DNA of 64,000 nucleotides from contig JAFGVD010000007.1 in assembly GCA_016938135.1 (NCBI GenBank), forward strand, positions 1-64,000, read 5' to 3'. Positions 31,882 through 43,220 of this stretch are shown one piece after another. This DNA is from Coriobacteriia bacterium (GTDB taxonomy: Bacteria > Actinomycetota > Coriobacteriia > Anaerosomatales > Anaerosomataceae). Below the pieces are notes generated by a model, which saw nothing but the letters and a program-made list of their open reading frames with translations, searched no databases and was not told where the DNA came from. Both the position numbers and the translations under genes were made by a program. The first letter of the stretch is position 1. The number at the start of each line of letters is the position of its first letter.

Positions 31882-32127
31882 ATGGCCGTCAAGCTGTTCG
31901 CGCTTTCTACGTGCCCGTACTGCCGGATGACGCGCAAGTACCTCGAGGACAATGACGTCGAGTTCGACCTTCTGGAGGTCGACTTGCTCGAGGGGCAGGA
32001 GCGCACGGACGCGATCGCCGAGGTGAAGGAGCTCTCCGGCGGGACATCGTTTCCCGTAGCGGTGATCGATGACGAGGTGATCGTGGGCTTCAACAAGAAG
32101 AAGATCAGGGAGATGTTGAGTCTATGA
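31882..32127 (+). CDS. glutaredoxin-like protein
   Basis: 81 residues with the active site STCPYCRMTRKYL near residue 12, the cis-Pro motif GGTSFPVAVIDDE near residue 55, and VGFNKKKI at the end. Members of this branch (NrdH/YruB-like) take electrons from a thioredoxin or glutathione-type donor. The stop overlaps the ATG of the FTR-Rieske gene, so the two are translationally coupled. A role as electron acceptor or partner of that protein is a strong inference. Confidence 0.93.
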   Translation: MAVKLFALSTCPYCRMTRKYLEDNDVEFDLLEVDLLEGQERTDAIAEVKELSGGTSFPVAVIDDEVIVGFNKKKIREMLSL

Positions 32128-32798
32128 GCGGCAGCAGCACTCGTCCCGTCCGACGCAGGTTTCCCGAGGGGACAACCGCAGAGGATCTCAAGGAATACAT
32201 GGCGCCGTTCGTGGCGACTCTCGGCTATAAGTTCAACACCGAGAGCGAGTTCGTCGACGAGGTGCTGACCTCTGAGCTCGAGATCTTGGAGAAGACAGGT
32301 GACGTGTTCTGTCCGTGCAGGATCCGTACGGGAGACCCCAAAGAGGACGCGAAGATCGTCTGCCCGTGCATCCCATTCTACCTGGAGCAGTTCGCGGCCA
32401 TGCGTAAGTGTTGGTGCGGACTGTTCATCAGGACAGATGTTGATGACGGCGCCGAGCTTCTCGGCGTGATCGAGGAGCCGGAGCCGGGGTCGGCCGTAGA
32501 CGTCCCGGTCTGCCGGGTTGAAGACCTCCCCGACGGTCAGGTGCGGCATGTGAAGATCGGCAAGCAAGACATTGCCCTCGCTCGCGTGGGCGATGAGTAT
32601 TTCGCCCTCTCAAACCTATGCCGGCATGCTTTCGGTCCGCTGTCCGACGGAATCCTCGACGGCTACTACGTGATGTGCCCTTGGCACGGTTGGCGCTATG
32701 ACCTCCGAGACGGGACAACCGATCATCCCGACGCGGATGTGAGGACCTACGAGGTCACGGTTTCTGATGGGTTCGTGCTGGTAAGAGCAGGATTGTGA
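32124..32798 (+). CDS. ferredoxin:thioredoxin reductase catalytic domain fused to a Rieske domain
   Basis: 224 residues. Residues 20-105 match the FTR catalytic chain, with CPC at 63-65, CPC at 80-82 and CWC at 96-98, giving the [4Fe-4S] ligands and the redox disulphide. Residues 125-224 are a Rieske domain with C166-x-H168 and C185-x2-H188 (CPWHGW). The first block has spacing CPC-x14-CPC-x13-CWC, longer at the end than in cyanobacterial FTR. The Rieske domain resembles soluble Rieske ferredoxins. The protein probably brings electrons through the Rieske centre to the glutaredoxin-like partner just upstream. Confidence 0.88.
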   Translation: MSGSSTRPVRRRFPEGTTAEDLKEYMAPFVATLGYKFNTESEFVDEVLTSELEILEKTGDVFCPCRIRTGDPKEDAKIVCPCIPFYLEQFAAMRKCWCGLFIRTDVDDGAELLGVIEEPEPGSAVDVPVCRVEDLPDGQVRHVKIGKQDIALARVGDEYFALSNLCRHAFGPLSDGILDGYYVMCPWHGWRYDLRDGTTDHPDADVRTYEVTVSDGFVLVRAGL

Positions 32799-34210: not shown

Positions 34211-35137
34211 TTACTCGGTGGTCTTCTCTTTGAACAGCTCCGCGATGCCACCGATGCTGCCCATGATCCCGCTGACCTCCATGGGGAGGAACACCTTGTT
34301 CGCGGGCCCGTCCGCGATGGCCTTGAGGGCCTCGAGGTAACGGATGGCGATGAGGTCATTGGTGGGGTTGCCTTCGTGCACTGCGCTGAACACCGACTTG
34401 ATAGCGAGTGCCTCACCCTCTGCCAGCGCGATCTTCTGGAACTTCTCGGCTTCGGCCACGTCCTTGATGGCCTGGGCCTTACCTTCGGCTTCAAGAATAG
34501 CAGCGCCCTTTGAACCCTCGGCACGCGTGATCGCGGCTTGCTTGTCACCGTCGGCTTCAAGGATCAGGGCACGACGGGTACGCTCGGCTTTCATCTGGCG
34601 GTGCATGGCCTCGGTGACATCCATCGGCGGCTCGATGCGCTGCAGCTCCACGCGTACCACGCGTACGCCCCACTTGTCAGTGGCGTCGTCAAGAATCTGA
34701 CGCAGCGCCGAGTTGATCTGCTCACGTGAGGTCAGCGACTCGTCAAGCTGCATCTCGCCGATGACGTTACGCAGGTTGGTCTGTGCCAGCTTGGTGGCGG
34801 CGATGTAGAAGTTGGCCACGTTGTAGACCAGTTTCACCGGGTCGGTCGCCTCGTAGTAGACGACTGCGTCCACGGTGACAACGACGTTGTCTTTGGTGAT
34901 GACTTCTTGCGGGGGCACGTCGACGACGTTCTCGCGCATGTCCACCTTCGTCATCTTGTCGATGACCGGAATGATGATGGTTAGTCCGGAATCGACGGTG
35001 CGCTGATACTTGCCGAGACGTTCGACGAGACCTTTTTCATACGGTCGGACGATACGAATGCCAGCCATGGCGTAGAAGAACACCACGAATAGCACCACGG
35101 CGCCGAACACGACGGCAAACGCCGCTCCAGAATCCAT
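34211..35137 (-). CDS. SPFH/stomatin-like protein
   Basis: 308 residues from the ATG at 35137 with GGGGG six bases before. One N-terminal helix ([20 protein letters not shown]), then the SPFH domain: [33 protein letters not shown], and a long Ala/Glu/Lys helix to the end ([19 protein letters not shown]). It is the slipin/prohibitin-homologue type that pairs with NfeD. The NfeD gene precedes it by one base. The pair is thought to shape membrane microdomains and quality control. Confidence 0.95.
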
Positions 35138-35138
35138 G

Positions 35139-35594
35139 TCAGTCCCCCTTCGTATCTGCAACTTCTACGGGCGTCACAACCAGGTGGGTGCCCTCGATGC
35201 GATCGATGATCACACGCGTGCCTACGGGAATGAGCTCTGTGGCAGGGGAGTCAGCACGCCATTCTTCACGCTCGATGCGTATCCGACCTGCACCATCTCC
35301 TGGCTCGATGCCTTCGGTGACAGTGCCGATCTTGCCTACCAGGCGGTCGACATTCACCTTCTGTGGCGGCTCATGAGTCACGCGGTCAGCGAAGCCCCGC
35401 AATCCGAACAGCAGCGCAATAGAGACGGCGAGAAACGCCGCCCACTGCCAGCCCAGGCTCAGGCCAAGGTAGTCCACAGCTGCCGCAGCAGCAGCGCCTA
35501 TCCCGAACGGGAGCAGGAAGAAACCAGCCGTGAACATCTCGCCCACGATGAGAACCGCTGCCAGGCCGACCCACACCCAGAACCATGCGTCCAT
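35139..35594 (-). CDS. NfeD family membrane protein
   Basis: 151 residues: an N-terminal helix region ([19 protein letters not shown]), a second pair of helices up to residue 65, then an OB-fold domain with [11 protein letters not shown] and the typical beta strands ([18 protein letters not shown]). This is the short NfeD form without the ClpP-like protease part, always found with a slipin gene, as here. Confidence 0.95.
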
Positions 35595-35665: not shown

Positions 35666-36568
35666 CTAATTCGCGCTTTGTTCCTCGTCATCTCCGAGAG
35701 GAGACAGGCCCCGCTCGGCCGCCACAGCATCCAGGGCCAGCATGACGACTTCTTCAACCATCGGATCCAACGCGAAGTCGAGTTCTTTCTCGAACGATAC
35801 TTTGAGATAGCCGTTGCACGTCTTGCATGTGTGGATGCGATGGCCGGGGTCTTCCTGGTCGAACAGATACTCAAGACTCTCGGGTGTGCGCTCCCCGCAT
35901 CTGGCACAGCGCAGTCGAGCGAAGATCCACTCTGCACGGCACAGGGGGCAGGAGAGCATGCGAACGCCGCCCTGTAGGTTTCCTTTGTCCAGAACCCGAC
36001 CGAATGACGCAGGAGTGCCGCACACGGGGCACAGACCGGAGCTCCACCGGGTCCAGTCGAACTCCTTCAAGGGCTTGAGCGCCTTGGTTGCGCCCGCGGA
36101 TATGAACGGAGTGATGGCGGTGGTCACAATGAACGAGTACGTGGACAGCGGGGCCGCACCGGCCTCTTTGGAGAGACGTGCATACATCAAGGATACGAAC
36201 GAGTCGATTCCCTTGAGGACATCTTGGACCATTTCGTCTGTGACGGTGGACTCGAAGTCAGCCGCTTTGAGGGCGTCGGACTGTTCCAGGGGAAGACCGC
36301 CCTCTTCGGCGAGCAGATCCGCTACCGCACGCAACGCACTGCGCAGCGGAGCAACAGGGATGGACGGTGCAGACATGGCAAAGACTATGCGTCCTGACGC
36401 TAGGGCCTCTTCGATCTTGTCATTTTCGGGGGGCGTCCAGTCGAGTGCCTCTTGTGCGAAGGAGTCCTGGAGATTCCAGAGCTTCTCGAAGAAGGCGAGC
36501 GTCGGTGCGATGTCAGGTCGGATCTCGCTGTAACGCTGGATGGATTTCGAGCGCGGTGAAGGAGTCAC
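35666..36568 (-). CDS. fdhE: formate dehydrogenase accessory protein FdhE-like
   Basis: 300 residues with the four Cys pairs of FdhE: CPVCG (near 183), CPLC (207), CARCG (220), CKTCN (248), which hold iron or zinc. FdhE is needed for activation of respiratory formate dehydrogenases. The formate dehydrogenase genes lie 1.3 kb away on the same strand, with two + strand redox genes between. The C-terminus ends in an acidic tail. Confidence 0.88.
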   Translation of the reverse strand: MTPSPRSKSIQRYSEIRPDIAPTLAFFEKLWNLQDSFAQEALDWTPPENDKIEEALASGRIVFAMSAPSIPVAPLRSALRAVADLLAEEGGLPLEQSDALKAADFESTVTDEMVQDVLKGIDSFVSLMYARLSKEAGAAPLSTYSFIVTTAITPFISAGATKALKPLKEFDWTRWSSGLCPVCGTPASFGRVLDKGNLQGGVRMLSCPLCRAEWIFARLRCARCGERTPESLEYLFDQEDPGHRIHTCKTCNGYLKVSFEKELDFALDPMVEEVVMLALDAVAAERGLSPLGDDEEQSAN

Positions 36569-36743
36569 AGTGCCTCCATTTGGGTTGCCGGTTTGTGATT
36601 CTTACCCACTCACAGGGTACCGCAATGCCCCCTGAGGTACCAGCGCGCCTGCGCATTCCGGTGTTCGGTCAAAACCTTCCATGGGTACAATAGTAAGCAG
36701 TCTCGATGACGAGGCCGGCGACTCGACAGGCGGGGTGAAGGGT

Positions 36744-37322
36744 ATGCGGCGAAGACACGGCACGACGTTTGTTTTGCTCCTGGTAGCGGTGGGACTGTCG
36801 TTTGCGCTAGGGGGGTGCAGCACGGAGGGCGTTGGAGAGGATTCAGAGCTCCCGCCCCAGGAGGGTCTTGAGATCGGTGACATCGCTCCCGATTTCCGGA
36901 TGCAGAGTCAAGATCAGGTCACAGTGGCTCTGAAAGACTACGCAGGGACGAAGAACGTCGTGCTGGTCTTCTATCCCGCGGACTTCACGCCTGTTTGAGA
37001 GGGCGAGCTGTCCGGGTACCGTGACAACTACCAGTTCTTCCAGGATCGTGATACCGAGGTCTTTGGCATCAGCCTTGACGGGTGGGCCAGTCATGCTGAG
37101 TTCCGAGCGCAGCTTGAGATCCCATTCGATCTACTGAGTGACTGGGAGCGCACGACTACTCCCGAGTACAGGGCGTTCAACGAGCGGCAGATACTGGCCA
37201 ACCGCTGGAGTTACCTGATCGACAAGGAAGGCAAGATCGTCTACACGCAGCATTCGGGTCTCAACGAGCCGCGGGATATCGACGCCATGATGGATGCTGT
37301 TGAGAAGCTGTACGCGGAGTAG
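36744..37322 (+). CDS. selenocysteine peroxiredoxin lipoprotein
   Basis: 192 residues if TGA at 36996-36998 is read as Sec (residue 85). The N-terminus (RRRHGTTFVLLLVAVGLSFA, Cys 25 in LGGC) is a lipoprotein signal. Then GDIAPDFRM and VVLVFYPADFTPV-U-EGELSGYRDNY: the peroxidatic Cys of AhpC/TSA proteins is replaced by Sec exactly in the FTPVC position. The frame stays open 108 codons past the TGA, with FGISLDGWASHAEF and IDKEGKIVYT. A hairpin follows the TGA. Start chosen at the Met before the signal peptide. It should reduce peroxides outside the membrane; the resolving partner is probably the thioredoxin-like lipoprotein 56 bases downstream. Confidence 0.85.
36996..37029 (+). promoter_or_regulatory. 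Sec codon and candidate bacterial SECIS hairpin (peroxiredoxin)
   Basis: TGA at 36996-36998. Seven bases on, AGCTGTC (37006-37012) pairs with GACAACT (37023-37029; one C:A mismatch), continued by CGG/CCG around a GTA loop at 37016-37018, leaving one unpaired T at 37022. The loop lies about 18 bases after the TGA, the range used by SelB. Confidence 0.6.
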
Positions 37323-37378
37323 CAGTCCGAACATGTCGATAGTGCCCCGGAAGGGCACATCGTCTTGGAGGAGGAACC

Positions 37379-37813
37379 ATGAGAAGAGCTTTAAGCCTGG
37401 TGCTTGTTGTGGCGTTGTTCGCGAGTATGGTGGTGCTTGCAGGCTGTGACAGCTCTACTGCCGAGAAAGCGCCGCTTACCTTCATGCAGTTCTATGACCC
37501 CGAGTGCCCGTTCTGTCAGGCGATGGAGCCCATCGTCGAGAACCTGCGCGCTGAGTACGAGCCAAAGATAGAGAGCTTCCAGATTATCGATGTCTCCACT
37601 GATGAAGGACGCGCTCAAGCTGAGGAGTTCGGTGTGTTCATTACGCCGACATTCTTCTTGCTTGATGCCGACGGTGAGACTTTGGACAAGATCTCAGGTG
37701 CGGCTACTGAAGAGAACATGAAGAAGTTCATCGATCGTGGCATAGACGATGTGACGGGTGAAGCTACCGGCCCCAAGGAGGAGATACCTACCGAGGGCGG
37801 CACGGAGCAGTAA
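37379..37813 (+). CDS. thioredoxin-like lipoprotein
   Basis: 144 residues. Lipobox LAGC (Cys 23), then TFMQFYDPECPFCQAMEP with the CPFC redox site at 43-46, and the cis-Pro motif VFITPTFFLLD. The C-terminal tail is acidic and Pro/Glu-rich. GGAGGA precedes the ATG. The context suggests reduction of the Sec-peroxiredoxin lipoprotein in the same operon. The electron source across the membrane (for example a CcdA/DsbD-type protein) is not in the window. Confidence 0.93.
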   Translation: MRRALSLVLVVALFASMVVLAGCDSSTAEKAPLTFMQFYDPECPFCQAMEPIVENLRAEYEPKIESFQIIDVSTDEGRAQAEEFGVFITPTFFLLDADGETLDKISGAATEENMKKFIDRGIDDVTGEATGPKEEIPTEGGTEQ

Positions 37814-37834
37814 TACGAGAGCCAGAGCATGCGA

Positions 37835-37866
37835 AAGGGGCCGGATCCTGCTGGATCCGGCCCCTT
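37835..37866. terminator. bidirectional terminator
   Basis: Perfect 14-bp repeat AAGGGGCCGGATCC/GGATCCGGCCCCTT (37835-37848, 37853-37866), four-base loop and a T-rich tail (CTTT). It closes the peroxiredoxin operon and faces the formate dehydrogenase operon. Confidence 0.85.
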
Positions 37867-37895
37867 CTTTGACCAGGGTGAACGGTGGAGAGTGG

Positions 37896-38573
37896 TTACT
37901 CTACCGAGACCTTGTCACCCTTTGCGAGCTCCTCTTTGGCCCAGGTGCCCCAGTGGTACAGAGCGTCGGACTCAGAGACCTTACCGTCGCCGAACATGAG
38001 GCGAACAGAGCCACGGTAGGGCTGGAACACGCCGGCACCCAGGTAGATGTGAACGAACATCATGAGTCCCAGCAGGACGAAGGCCACGTCGTGCGCCACG
38101 AGCATCCACAGTGTCAGCGTCCCGTTGATGGCAACGCCAGAGGCGGAGAGCCACAGGAAGACACCGGAGATGGAGATGGCGATCGCGAACGCGAACAGCA
38201 TCCAGTCTGACAACGCCTGGCCGGACTTGAGTTCTTTCTGCTCAGGCATGTGCTGCTTCGCACCGGTGAACAGGTAGGGGAAGAACTTCGCCATGAACTC
38301 TTTGTCGCCGGCGTCCCACTTGTAGAACATGTTCTTCAAGAAGTGCTTGAAGCCCTTCGGGTTCACGACTACTGCCAGCAGTGGTGCGGCGATGAAGATA
38401 ACGGCCATCACACGGTGGACCGTACGTGCACCCTGCATGGCGCCCAGCCCGACGGCCGACGCTACGGCTGGGATGAAGAGCATGAGTCCCGTCACGAACA
38501 GTGACATACATGCAATCGTGTGAATCCAGTGAAGACCGCGTGCAAACGCGCTCTGGCGCTGAATGTATCTCAT
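37896..38573 (-). CDS. fdnI: formate dehydrogenase gamma subunit, cytochrome b556 type
   Basis: 225 residues, four membrane helices with histidines for two b haems: ARGLHWIHTIACMSLFV, GARTVHRVMAVIFIAAP and VAHDVAFVLLGLMMFVHIYLG. It anchors the complex and passes electrons from the beta subunit to menaquinone. The C-terminus (DALYHWGTWAKEELAKGDK) is cytoplasmic. Its ATG overlaps the beta stop at one base. Confidence 0.94.
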   Translation of the reverse strand: MRYIQRQSAFARGLHWIHTIACMSLFVTGLMLFIPAVASAVGLGAMQGARTVHRVMAVIFIAAPLLAVVVNPKGFKHFLKNMFYKWDAGDKEFMAKFFPYLFTGAKQHMPEQKELKSGQALSDWMLFAFAIAISISGVFLWLSASGVAINGTLTLWMLVAHDVAFVLLGLMMFVHIYLGAGVFQPYRGSVRLMFGDGKVSESDALYHWGTWAKEELAKGDKVSVE

Positions 38574-39412
38574 TACTCCACCTCCCCAATCGTCCAGGTG
38601 TCAGTCTTCTCATCGTACGAGTGCTCGCCGCGCTTGTACTTGGAGCCCATCGCGAAGGAGAATCCGAGGGCACCAACGACAACACCAACGCCGACTGCGC
38701 TAAGCGGCTTCGCGAGATCGAGCAGGCTCGTTGCGACCGGAACCTTCGGATCACGGATCAGGCCGTGAGCCTCAAGACCGCGGTGCGCCACGATAATCGT
38801 GTGCATACCACCGACTTCGTTCTCGCCGTAAATCTCGGCCTTGTCGAAGCCCTGCTCCTTGAGAGTGTCTACGCGCGCCTTTGCCTTTGCCACCATCTCG
38901 GCTCGATCGCCGTACTCAAGGGCATCGGTGGGGCATGCAGTGACACAGGCGGGGTCTTTGTCTGCAGACGTGCGGTCGAAGCACTGCCAGCACTTGAACG
39001 ACTTGGCGTAGTCGGTTCCACCGATAACCTTTGCTCGGGGAATCGAGAACGGGCAGTTGTTCACGCAGTACTGACAACCGATGCACTTGTCCTGGTCGAT
39101 GACTACCGCGCCATTGTCCTTGTGGCTGATGGCGCCCACAGGGCAGGCCATCTCGCATGCGGCGTCGGTGCAGTGGAAGCATGCGTGGCGCATGAAGTTC
39201 CACTCAACGCCGATGTCCATGGAGACCTCGGAGAAGGTCATGAGCAGCCATGTGTCCGGGTCGAGATCGAGCGGGCCCTGATAGCTCTTTGTGAATTCAT
39301 ACTCCTCGGCCGTGAGAGGCGCGGGAAGCTGGTTCCACTGCTTGCAGGCTATCTGGCAACCCTTACAGGCGGTGCACTTAGAGGCGTCGTAAAGAATCGC
39401 TGTCTCAGCCAT
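38573..39412 (-). CDS. fdnH: formate dehydrogenase beta subunit, four [4Fe-4S] clusters
   Basis: 279 residues from the ATG at 39412 with AGGAGG six bases before. Cysteine blocks: CTACKGCQIACKQW, CFHCTDAACEMACP, CIGCQYCVNNCPFSIP and CWQCFDRTSADKDPACVTACP. A single C-terminal helix (LSAVGVGVVVGALGFSFAMG) ties it to the gamma subunit. It carries electrons from the alpha subunit. Overlaps neither neighbour; one base separates it from alpha. Confidence 0.96.
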   Translation of the reverse strand: MAETAILYDASKCTACKGCQIACKQWNQLPAPLTAEEYEFTKSYQGPLDLDPDTWLLMTFSEVSMDIGVEWNFMRHACFHCTDAACEMACPVGAISHKDNGAVVIDQDKCIGCQYCVNNCPFSIPRAKVIGGTDYAKSFKCWQCFDRTSADKDPACVTACPTDALEYGDRAEMVAKAKARVDTLKEQGFDKAEIYGENEVGGMHTIIVAHRGLEAHGLIRDPKVPVATSLLDLAKPLSAVGVGVVVGALGFSFAMGSKYKRGEHSYDEKTDTWTIGEVE

Positions 39413-39413
39413 G

Positions 39414-42400
39414 TCACACCTCCTGCTTCCGGATGTTGACAAGGAACGCCTTGCTTTCCGGAATCATCGTGTTGGCATCGCCAACGTTGGGGGAGAGCTC
39501 GTTGGCGGAACCACCAACAGAGCAGGTACCGGCATAGCCCCAGTGCCACGGAGTGCCGATCTGATGGACTGTCTTTCCGCTGACGGTGAAGGGCTTGACG
39601 CGGTCAGTGACCATTGCATAGGCCGTGATAGCGCCTCGCTTGTTCTCGATCACCACGTTGTCACCGGATACGATGTCCTTTTCTTCCGCCAGTTCACGCG
39701 AGAGTTCGACGAACATCTTCGGCATCGTCTGGACGAGCCATGGCAGGTTACGGGTGAGAACGCCGGACTGCCAGTGCTCGGTGAGACGGAATGTCGTCAT
39801 GACGATCGGGTACTCGTCCGCTGTACCGCGGGTCTCTTCGGCCGTCGGGTAGATCGTGATGGCCGGGTTGACCTGCGTGCTGGACATCTGGTTCTCTACC
39901 GGAGCCTCAAAGGGCTCGTAGTGCTCTGGGAACGGTCCATCTGCCATACCCGGGGCAAAGAACCGACCTGCGCCTTCCGGCACCATGATGAATGCTGTGG
40001 AGTTTGGCGGAGTCGGTGTTGCCACTCCGTCCGCGTCTACGACCTGGAAGCCGAAGTCCGGAACGTCGTTGCGGAGCCACTTGGTCCCGTCCCACTTCAC
40101 AAGAATCTTGTTCTCGTTCCAGGGCTTACCGCTCGGGTCCGCCGATGCGCGGTTGTAGATAACGCGGCGGTTGACCGGCCATGCGAACGACCATCCGAGG
40201 TACGAGCCGATGGGCTCAGTGAGTCCTTCGCCAGGTTCATCGACATCGTTGCGGGAGCCGGTGGGCTGATCTGCCGGCTCGTTGGAATCGTTGTTGTTCC
40301 AGTAGCCGGAGTAGATCCAGTTACCACACGCGGTGGAGCCGTCGGCAGCAAGCAGGGTGAAGTTCTTCACGAGGCTGTTGTCGGCGACCGTGTAACCGTT
40401 GAGCGCACGAGCTACCTTGGTGATATCGGCGTGGCCGGCATCGTCGAGGTAGTCCCAGGTGAGCTCTGTGATCTGCTCGGGATTTGCGCCGCCCTCGGCC
40501 TTGTAGAGATCCTGGAGCTTGAGAACAAGCTCTGTACAAATCTCCAGGTCGTCCTTCTGGTCCTCACGAGGTTCGACTGCCTTGTAGCGCCACTGGATCC
40601 AGCGGCCGGAGTTCGCGATCTCGCCCTGCTTCTCGTAGTGACAAGCAGCGGGAAGCAAGAAGACTTCGGTCTGGATGTCGGCAGGAGTGGCGTTGGCCTT
40701 CTCGCTCCAGAAGATCGAGGTCTCGGTCTCCCAGAGGTCGATGGCGACCATCCACTTTAGCTTCTCAAGTGCCTTGCGCTCCATGCCGCAGTTCGGGCCG
40801 GCCTGTGCGGGGTTCTGACCCCAGCAGAACAGTCCCTCCATCTCGCCGTTGTACATCTTCTCGAACATGGCGATATGGCTGTGGTTCGAGCCGTCGTACT
40901 TGGGAAGCATGTCGTAGGCGTAGTCGTTGTCGACCGTGGCGTAGTCTCCGTACAGTTCCTTGAGAAGGCTGATGAGGAACTTCGGCTTGTTGGTCCAGTA
41001 GCTGCCTGCAGGTGTCTCCGTTGACAGATAGTCGGCGAGCTTTGGATGCTTGACGCTGGTCGGCGATGACATGTAGCCGGGGATGATGTGGAACAGCATC
41101 GCCATGTCGGTCGAACCCTGGACGTTGGACTCACCACGGAGGGCGTTGACGCCACCGCCTGCAACACCCATGTTGCCAAGGAGCAACTGGGTCATTGCCA
41201 TGGCGCGGACGTTCTGTGAGCCGTAGGTGTGCTGGGTCTGGCCCATCGCGTAGAGGATGGAGCCGGCCTTGCCGGGCTCACCGGTAGAGGCGTACAGCTC
41301 ATAGACCTCAAGCAGACGATCAAGCGGCATGCCCGTGATGCTGGAAACAAGTTCCGGTGTGTAGCGCGAGTAGTGCGCCTTCATGAGCTGCCAGACGCAG
41401 TTCGGATCCTGAAGTGTAGCGTCCTTCTTGGGGGTCTTGATGGTAGGTGTCGTGAACGCCGGCGTGCCAGCTCCGTTGACCCATGCCATCTTGCCGGTCT
41501 CGGTGGTGTCCCACTGCTCTTCGGACTCGATCTGGTATGCCCAGGTCGCCTTGTCTGCGGCGTACTTGGCGGTGGCTGTGTCGTAGCCACTGAACAGGCC
41601 GTCGGAGAAAGCGTAGTCCGGCGTTACAAGCCAGGAGGCCGTTGTATACGCCTTGACGTACTCATCATGCTGCAGGTTGTTCTCCATGATGTAGTTGAAC
41701 AGACCACCATAGAAAGCGATGTCAGTACCCGAGCGGAGCGGCGCGTACAGGTCGGCGACAGCCGCGGTACGCGTGAAGCGTGGGTCGACGACGACGAGCT
41801 TGCCGCCCATGAGCTTGGCTTCAGTTATCCACTTCATCGAAATCGGGTGGTTCTCGGCGCAGTTGGAGCCGTTCACCATGATTACGTCGCAGTTCTTAAG
41901 GTCGATCCAGTGGTTCGTCATGGCACCGCGCCCGAATGTGTTGCCCAAACCTTGGACAGTGGCGCTGTGTCATATACGGGCCTGGTGCTCGATGAACGTC
42001 ACGCCGAGCGCGCGAGCGAACTTCTGCACCGCATAACACTCTTCGCCGTCGAGACCCGCGCCACCAAGGTTGCCGATCGCTTCGCAGCGGTTGACGGTAG
42101 CACCGTTGGCATCAGTGGCCTCATAGTTGGCATCGCGCGTCTCCTTGACACGCTTGGCAATCTCTTCGATCGCCCATTCCCAGTCCTTCGTCTCCCATTC
42201 AGAAGAACCGGGAGCACGGTACTGGACTTTGGTCAGTCGATACGGGTTCGGTTCTAGTGCGCCCGTCTCGGGGTTGTACACGTTGCGGATGTTGAACTGG
42301 GCCGAGCCCTTTGAGCACAGCGCACCGCGGTTGATGGGGTGGTCCGGATCGCCTTCAAGGTTGACGAGTTCGCCATCGATCACCGAGCAGATTCCGCCGC

Positions 42401-42572
42401 AACCTACAGCGCAGTAGCAGCAGATCGTTGGTGATTCAGTGGCACCCTTGATGCGGAGCTCCGGAACGGCATCAGCCGCGAGAGCGTTGGCAGGGCCAAA
42501 TACCTCGGCCAGGGCTCCGGCAGCGAAAGTCGCGCCGGTGAGCTTGAAGAAGCTACGCCTGGAAAGGTTCAC
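39414..42572 (-). CDS. fdnG: formate dehydrogenase alpha subunit, selenocysteine-containing, Tat-exported
   Basis: 1052 residues when the TGA at 41970-41972 is read as Sec (residue 201). Tat leader NLSRRSFFKLTG; [4Fe-4S] cysteines in CCYCAVGCGG and CSKG; catalytic EHQARI-U-HSATVQGLGNTFG, the exact FdnG context; then GRGAMTNHWIDLKNCDVIMV and the MGD-binding domains to the C-terminus. Without readthrough the gene would break into two perfectly collinear pieces. I chose GTG at 42572 because GGAGG lies five bases before it; ATG at 42584 would place the ribosome site inside the frame. It oxidises formate outside the membrane. Confidence 0.93.
41942..41972 (-). promoter_or_regulatory. Sec codon and candidate SECIS hairpin (formate dehydrogenase)
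   Basis: TGA at 41972-41970 (minus strand). After 11 bases, TGTCC (41958-41954) pairs with GGGCA (41946-41942) around a 7-base loop AAGGTTT. The loop is about 20 bases past the TGA and has the GGTT that SelB contacts in other SECIS loops. Confidence 0.55.
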
Positions 42573-43220
42573 CCTTACCTCCATTCACAGGAAACATACG
42601 ATTGGTCAGTTCACGTACCAGTCTGTACCTGCGTTCTGTGCGCTTTGCGCAACCCTCCAATCCACACACTACGTGTCGCTGAATCGCTGACTTGGGCGGG
42701 GATTCCCTCCCGGCCTTCGGTGTGCGATTACCAGCGGCTGGACAGTAGGTAGCCCCCGTCGTCTTCGAACGAGGGGCATGGGGGGGTCAAGGGGAGAAAC
42801 GCGAAAAGCGCCACAGATATAAACGACTGTGCGACAGTCGTATCTGTAGCGCCCACTACAGAGTTGCTTCGTACCGCGGAGAATGCCGGTTCTCTCACGT
42901 CAACCCCCTTACCATGCACCGAGGGTAGCACAGGGTCACAGAGGATGTGTAGGGTCTGAATCGTTGCTTCGGACAGGCGGTAGTCTCGCTCAGGCAAATT
43001 CAGGCCCCACGCCTGTGAGCTGCAGGCGAAGCAGTATGGAAACATGCATGAAATGAATCATCTGACCGCTCGTCAGAGGGGCGACCCTTAGGAAGCCTGT
43101 TCCTCTGTTGAATATTCCAAGAATCTGATACACTCCCACAATCTCAGGCGGAGCGCGTGTCACTTCCAGATTCCGATGACTCGCGACAAGCAAGAACGTG
43201 TGCAGAAACGGAGGAAAGGC
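42573..43220. other. 648-base divergent intergenic region
   Basis: Separates fdnG (-) from the branched-chain importer (+). I find no convincing gene. It holds a G/C hairpin (42694-42711) in the fdnG leader, the strong hairpin at 42808-42852 described separately, and the promoter area of the importer near 43100-43200, with TTGAAT and TACACT spaced 15 bases apart. I looked for tRNA-Sec here and found no cloverleaf. Confidence 0.5.
42808..42852 (-). terminator. strong orphan hairpin with T-run on the minus strand
   Basis: Inner stem ACGACTGT/ACAGTCGT (42823-42830, 42834-42841, loop GCG), middle stem CAGAT/ATCTG (42814-42818, 42842-42846, a four-base bulge), outer GCGC/GCGC (42808-42811, 42849-42852). 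Read leftwards it is followed by TTTT and C/T-rich bases, like a terminator. No gene lies upstream on that strand, so it may end a small RNA or attenuate fdnG transcription. Confidence 0.5.

Follow-up and report, generated by a model that had tools for sequence, protein, structure and literature searches.

A predicted exported selenocysteine peroxiredoxin paired with a thioredoxin lipoprotein at a formate dehydrogenase locus of Anaerosomatales

The window, which is the whole 64,000-nucleotide stretch analysed here (Coriobacteriia bacterium, order Anaerosomatales; GCA_016938135.1, contig JAFGVD010000007.1, positions 1 to 64,000 of the forward strand), carries a peroxiredoxin gene (prx) that opens with a lipoprotein signal and is predicted to be read through an in-frame TGA as selenocysteine (Sec). 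Recoding of this TGA and the export signal are judged close to certain. The product is proposed, with moderate confidence, to be a lipid-anchored one-Sec peroxidase that is recharged by thioredoxin (Trx), probably via CcdA, and that most likely guards an exported formate dehydrogenase. The features of the gene are listed below.

36744 to 37322, + strand: Sec-peroxiredoxin lipoprotein gene, 192 aa with Sec85, stop codon TAG.
36744 to 36818, + strand: predicted lipoprotein signal peptide, lipobox ALGGC, lipidated residue Cys25 (36816-36818); residues G24 and C25 unchanged across the 12 orthologs.
36975 to 36998, + strand: peroxidatic motif PADFTPV-U (P78, T82, Sec85), the three positions invariant; aligns with PLAFTGIC of M. 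tuberculosis AhpE.
36996 to 36998, + strand: Sec codon UGA; TGA kept in 14/14 copies spanning the site.
37009 to 37026, + strand: candidate bSECIS hairpin, apical loop GUA at 37016-37018, 17 nt after the UGA.
37203 to 37205, + strand: Arg154, invariant among full-length copies and aligned with the active-site arginine of AhpE.

The frame runs from the ATG at 36744 through the TGA at 36996-36998, its sole internal stop, and continues for 107 codons to the TAG at 37320-37322. When the read-through protein was aligned to AhpC/TSA proteins, as had been suggested in a first-pass annotation of this DNA, the Pfam AhpC-TSA match scored 119 bits (cut-off 26, E 1.2e-34) and ran through the TGA, which lies, as that annotation had claimed, exactly at the peroxidatic position of a P-x-x-x-T-x-x-U motif. 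The codon-usage score was 0.24 before the TGA and 0.25 after it, whereas both other forward frames scored below zero. Plain ORF calling returned a truncated ORF of 105 aa (36681-36998) and no in-frame ORF of at least 80 aa downstream of the TGA, and the expectation that gene callers would miss or split the gene was borne out by this stump. Annotation cuts genes of this kind at the Sec codon, which makes it easy to overlook this protein and how it is linked to formate dehydrogenase.

A profile search of the PDB placed M. tuberculosis AhpE first (1xvw, 2.6e-32), as did Foldseek with an AlphaFold2 model (pLDDT 77, built from a 12-row alignment; 1xxu, target TM 0.89). P78, T82, Sec85 and R154 are invariant and line up with the AhpE active site. 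The nearest relative is the one-Cys AhpE subfamily and not PrxU of Eubacterium acidaminophilum, with which the protein had initially been compared. That comparison stands for the position of Sec in the AhpC-TSA domain, which is peroxidatic as in PrxU and the TxxU Prx family, but it does not extend to kinship: membership of PrxU was rejected on the NCBIfam model NF040737 (61 bits against a cut-off of 270), and, unlike PrxU and the TxxU proteins, the window protein is predicted to be exported and is tied to formate dehydrogenase. With AhpE (Rv2238c) it shares the P-x-x-x-T-x-x-[C/U] motif, the aligned arginine and the one-Cys type lacking a resolving cysteine. AhpE, however, uses Cys and begins directly at the peroxiredoxin domain, with no export signal, whereas the window protein uses Sec, carries a lipobox, comes with a Trx lipoprotein dedicated to it and is linked to formate dehydrogenase. 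The reductant shown for M. tuberculosis AhpE is mycothiol/mycoredoxin and not an exported Trx (PMC8945050), which counts against the electron route proposed below. In a tree of 57 sequences, built without the wrong-frame rows L135, L140, L147 and L076, the Sec lipoproteins formed one clade (support 100/98.7) that included the distant copy of genome G399.

In every complete copy a short charged N-terminus and a hydrophobic stretch precede an invariant Gly-Cys lipobox, although signal and linker are the fast-evolving parts of the protein. The lipobox pattern is satisfied in 11/12 full-length copies, L048 having LTGC with Pro at -4; in the distant copy L130, whose start codon is uncertain, TISC stands behind a hydrophobic stretch. 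LspA (PF01252) was found in the genome at 127 bits. The lipoprotein signal noted in the first-pass annotation thus held up, with the lipobox Cys kept in every complete copy and LspA available. An inventory of Cys and Sec across the 12 full-length copies gave no residues other than Cys25, where the lipid would be attached, and Sec85. Since Cys25 is the only Cys beside Sec85, the protein would be a one-Sec lipoprotein, and resolution must come from a partner.

A candidate partner lies directly downstream, and the pair is embedded in a formate dehydrogenase locus, in which fdhB, fdhC and fdhE were named by sequence reading, with additional support as given.

35666 to 36568, - strand: fdhE-like formate dehydrogenase accessory gene.
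37379 to 37813, + strand: thioredoxin-like lipoprotein gene (trx), lipobox VLAGC, CPFC at 37505-37516 (Pfam Thioredoxin 3.9e-12); presumed reductant.
37896 to 38573, - strand: fdhC, membrane cytochrome b subunit (also synteny).
38573 to 39442, - strand: fdhB, iron-sulfur subunit.
39414 to 42584, - strand: fdhA, catalytic subunit with Tat-type signal SRRSFFK and Sec codon at 41970-41972 (synteny, Sec scan).

The trx gene starts 56 bases downstream of prx, and its equivalent directly follows prx in every locus that is long enough. The locus itself is on the minus strand, with the pair set between its fdhC and fdhE on the + strand; lying opposite to fdhABC and fdhE, the pair is not co-transcribed with them in the window's order. 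Among the 61 genomes of the order, fdhE was found in 21, namely in 14/14 with the peroxiredoxin versus 7/47 of the others, a co-occurrence given without a p-value for genomes that are related. In fdhE genomes without the pair and with fdhC in reach, fdhC adjoins fdhE with nothing between them, and in G038 the order SPFH-NfeD-fdhE-fdhC-fdhB-fdhA is whole while the pair is absent; the pair is therefore a cassette that a known locus has either gained or lost. It is not essential to formate dehydrogenase, because seven members of the order lack it but have kept fdhE, the fdh locus being readable in most of them. Conversely, wherever its context was readable, prx was at the fdh locus. The Trx partner and the formate dehydrogenase context, both absent from the first-pass annotation, are the best clue to function. 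A promoter scan of 36500-38000 gave nothing useful. When the window was scanned under a strict codon filter for further Sec genes, fdhA alone was returned, which is no proof of absence because the filter missed prx itself.

Two neighbouring gene groups were also recorded. At 34211-35594 lies an SPFH and NfeD-like pair, which adjoins fdhE even in G038, the genome without the peroxiredoxin pair; its SPFH gene is 82-95% identical across the order. At 31882-32798, sequence reading showed two genes, one glutaredoxin-like and the other joining a cysteine cluster like that of ferredoxin-thioredoxin reductase to a Rieske-like domain; in most relatives this fusion gene shares synteny with the fdhE/prx locus.

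From the position of Sec, its constraint, the Sec machinery, the lipobox, the lone Sec, the partner gene and the formate dehydrogenase linkage, all read from the sequence, we infer catalysis, an electron route and protection of formate dehydrogenase as follows. SelB, tRNA-Sec and the SECIS hairpin would decode UGA as selenocysteine, and the protein would be exported, lipidated at Cys25 and anchored to the outer face of the cytoplasmic membrane. There Sec85 would reduce peroxide, passing to the selenenic acid, and, because the protein is without a resolving cysteine, the oxidised Sec would be reduced by the co-encoded Trx lipoprotein (CPFC). The latter would be recharged across the membrane, probably by a CcdA-type carrier encoded elsewhere in the genome. 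A CcdA-family gene is present at C47:9382-10038, not at the prx locus, so that carrier and Trx-fold lipoprotein occur in the same genome with their genes unlinked. A working precedent for the route from CcdA to a surface Trx is the Etrx1/Etrx2-CcdA-MsrAB2 system of S. pneumoniae (PMC3914529), in which surface Trx-fold lipoproteins pass electrons from CcdA to an extracytoplasmic oxidative-stress enzyme, as is proposed here; its enzyme, however, is a methionine sulfoxide reductase and not a Sec peroxiredoxin, and in the window CcdA is not at the locus. The task of the pair would most likely be to keep peroxide from the Tat-exported, oxygen-sensitive Sec formate dehydrogenase.

A second arrangement was found in G399, a genome of another class from a phylum-wide sample, which has a prx ortholog (E 9.7e-72) with TGA at the same position. 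There a single strand carries prx-trx-fdhA-fdhB-fdhC in that order. Its FdhA begins with a Tat-like sequence and contains Sec193, and the Trx lipoprotein (L164:938-1339) has the active site DPT-U-PRC, that is UPRC in place of the CPFC of the others, with its Sec codon TGA at L164:1088-1090. Three consecutive genes for predicted exported proteins would therefore each contain a Sec codon. The arrangement is known from one genome, prx being absent from the other two genomes examined in that class. Multi-selenoprotein operons such as grdA-grdB, frhA-frhD-hdrA, SAO and Tso likewise place Sec genes of one pathway next to each other, but the combination of exported Sec-Prx, Sec-Trx and Sec formate dehydrogenase is absent from those listed in PMC13188914.

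We regard it as about evenly balanced whether these genes form an extracytoplasmic selenium redox module, in which a Sec-Prx lipoprotein and a Trx lipoprotein guard an exported Sec formate dehydrogenase and which has become a run of three selenoproteins (prx-trx-fdhA) in one lineage. The TxxU Sec-peroxiredoxins are already known as a selenoprotein family (PMC13188914, PMC1794560) and are included in the 2026 catalogue (PMC13188914). A lipoprotein or signal-peptide form is not mentioned in the 2026 (PMC13188914) and 2022 selenoproteome reviews, and a wider literature search, confined to open-licence papers and thus weak evidence, gave no exported, formate-dehydrogenase-linked Sec-Prx; this form appears to be undescribed. 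If the proposal is right, anaerobes station the chemistry of a selenium peroxidase on the membrane's outer face, equip it with a thioredoxin of its own and link it to formate dehydrogenase, and selenoproteins would there protect a selenoprotein outside the cytoplasm. The oxygen sensitivity of formate dehydrogenase restricts its use in CO2 reduction.

That formate dehydrogenase is the client is suggested by the linkage to a Sec formate dehydrogenase, an enzyme of a kind inactivated by oxygen. For one such enzyme, PMC11323313 describes inactivation by O2 with displacement of the Sec ligand; a section heading of the same paper states for D. vulgaris FdhAB that ROS are not responsible for substrate-dependent inactivation in vitro. 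This weakens a pure peroxide-guard reading and leaves two other functions as live rivals, namely surface defence and thiol/selenol maintenance. In the first, the protein would defend the membrane and all surface proteins against peroxides and lipid hydroperoxides in general, its position at the fdh locus reflecting co-regulation only. The preference of the AhpE subfamily for long-chain fatty-acid hydroperoxides (PMC8945050) agrees with such a role, as do the lipid anchor, which would place the enzyme at the membrane, and the pneumococcal Etrx lipoproteins, which serve general extracellular oxidative stress resistance (PMC3914529). We nevertheless consider it unlikely, though well short of negligible, because prx is always at the fdh locus where the context is readable, including the different operon of G399. 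In the second, the pair would maintain thiols or selenols of formate dehydrogenase, by repairing or activating the enzyme or as a redox switch, and peroxide would be the signal and not the target. Tight linkage to fdhA and fdhE, the presence of Sec in both partners in G399 and the loss of one formate dehydrogenase to oxygen via Sec displacement (PMC11323313) would fit, but the peroxidase motif residues P, T, Sec and R are all intact, which makes it rather improbable.

The proposed guarding peroxidase presupposes that UGA is decoded as Sec, and the machinery for this was found when the genome was searched for selABCD: selA, selB, tRNA-Sec and selD lie in one cluster. SelB scored 376 bits, above the cut-off, and is directly followed by tRNA-Sec (65.8 bits; ARAGORN tca); SelA was assigned by reading the ORF before selB (L001:85-1482), and SelD (362 bits) is encoded upstream of selA. 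In 9/14 other genomes tRNA-Sec scored at least 65 bits; it was marginal in two (G020, G025) and below the threshold used in G014, G028 and G046, for which assembly gaps or the limit on scored candidates are the only explanation offered. The selD gene (G000:C49:42754-43671), close upstream of selA-selB-selC, itself has an in-frame TGA. Two tRNA-Sec matches over the Rfam cut-off were seen in G001 (C15/C77), G039 (C1), G399 (C3/C16) and G007 (C23/C32), both being clearly high-scoring in G001 and G039, which could be duplication or an assembly effect.

Published bSECIS constraints are a loop of 3-9 nt with G in the first two positions, 16-37 nt from the UGA, a stem of 4-16 bp and an MFE of at most -7.5 (PMC13188914). 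The hairpin that had been noted after the TGA was located at 37009-37026 and fits them, with a GUA loop, 17 nt spacing, a 7-bp upper stem with a bulge and an MFE of -10.2. The rule is not cleanly satisfied in L057-L059, the three most divergent members of the order, in which the fold differs, and comparison of hairpin MFE with synonymous-codon shuffles gave a modest, only suggestive z of -2.5 to +0.6. Readthrough of UGA as another amino acid (Trp or Cys, by near-cognate decoding) is very improbable given the complete selABCD with a SECIS-like hairpin, the UGA at a known Sec site (ARI-U-H) in the formate dehydrogenase of the same locus, and the confinement of UGA to the catalytic position. An altered genetic code was ruled out, as TGA ends other genes (prx of L048), is confined to the active site and is accompanied by Sec machinery.

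Conservation of the Sec codon was followed through 12 full-length copies (the window's included), the partial copy L059 and the distant copy L130, all 14 having TGA, an agreement far beyond chance; 13 are in Anaerosomatales and one in another actinobacterial class. The 11 other full-length orthologs, from the genus, family and order of the window genome, are 54-77% identical to its copy. Upstream of the TGA, in the mature part, pN/pS was 0.32, and downstream it was 0.28; decay of the 3' half, the finding that would have spoken for a pseudogene, was looked for across genera and was not seen. Over the 15 codons that follow the TGA, synonymous differences at invariant residues averaged 0.20, versus 0.46 elsewhere (permutation p 0.003, on few codons from related sequences). 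A search of the 398 class genomes at E 1e-20 gave no Cys ortholog of the lipoprotein, and neither did two peptide patterns run against about 85,000 species genomes; class hits at 40-43% identity were PrxQ/Bcp-like Cys proteins without a signal. That the TGA is a true stop, a sequencing error or the mark of a decaying gene is vanishingly unlikely: TGA does terminate genes elsewhere, as at the end of the same gene in L048, but 14 copies, whose genomes were assembled separately, share the identical TGA, purifying selection is equally strong on its two sides, and Sec machinery is present. Pseudogene and sequencing error were ruled out by the 14 conserved copies and equal constraint.

The other peroxiredoxin hits of the order nearly all have TGA at the peroxidatic site as well. 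They comprise AhpC-like (FTFVU), PrxQ/Bcp-like (NTPGU) and Prx-glutaredoxin fusion (TPVU) types, at loci L160:2098 (G000:C42:43932-44360), G000:C38:6409-6783 (L161), L031, L034, L044, L033 and L040. Cys seems to have been replaced by Sec across several cytoplasmic Prx types in the order.
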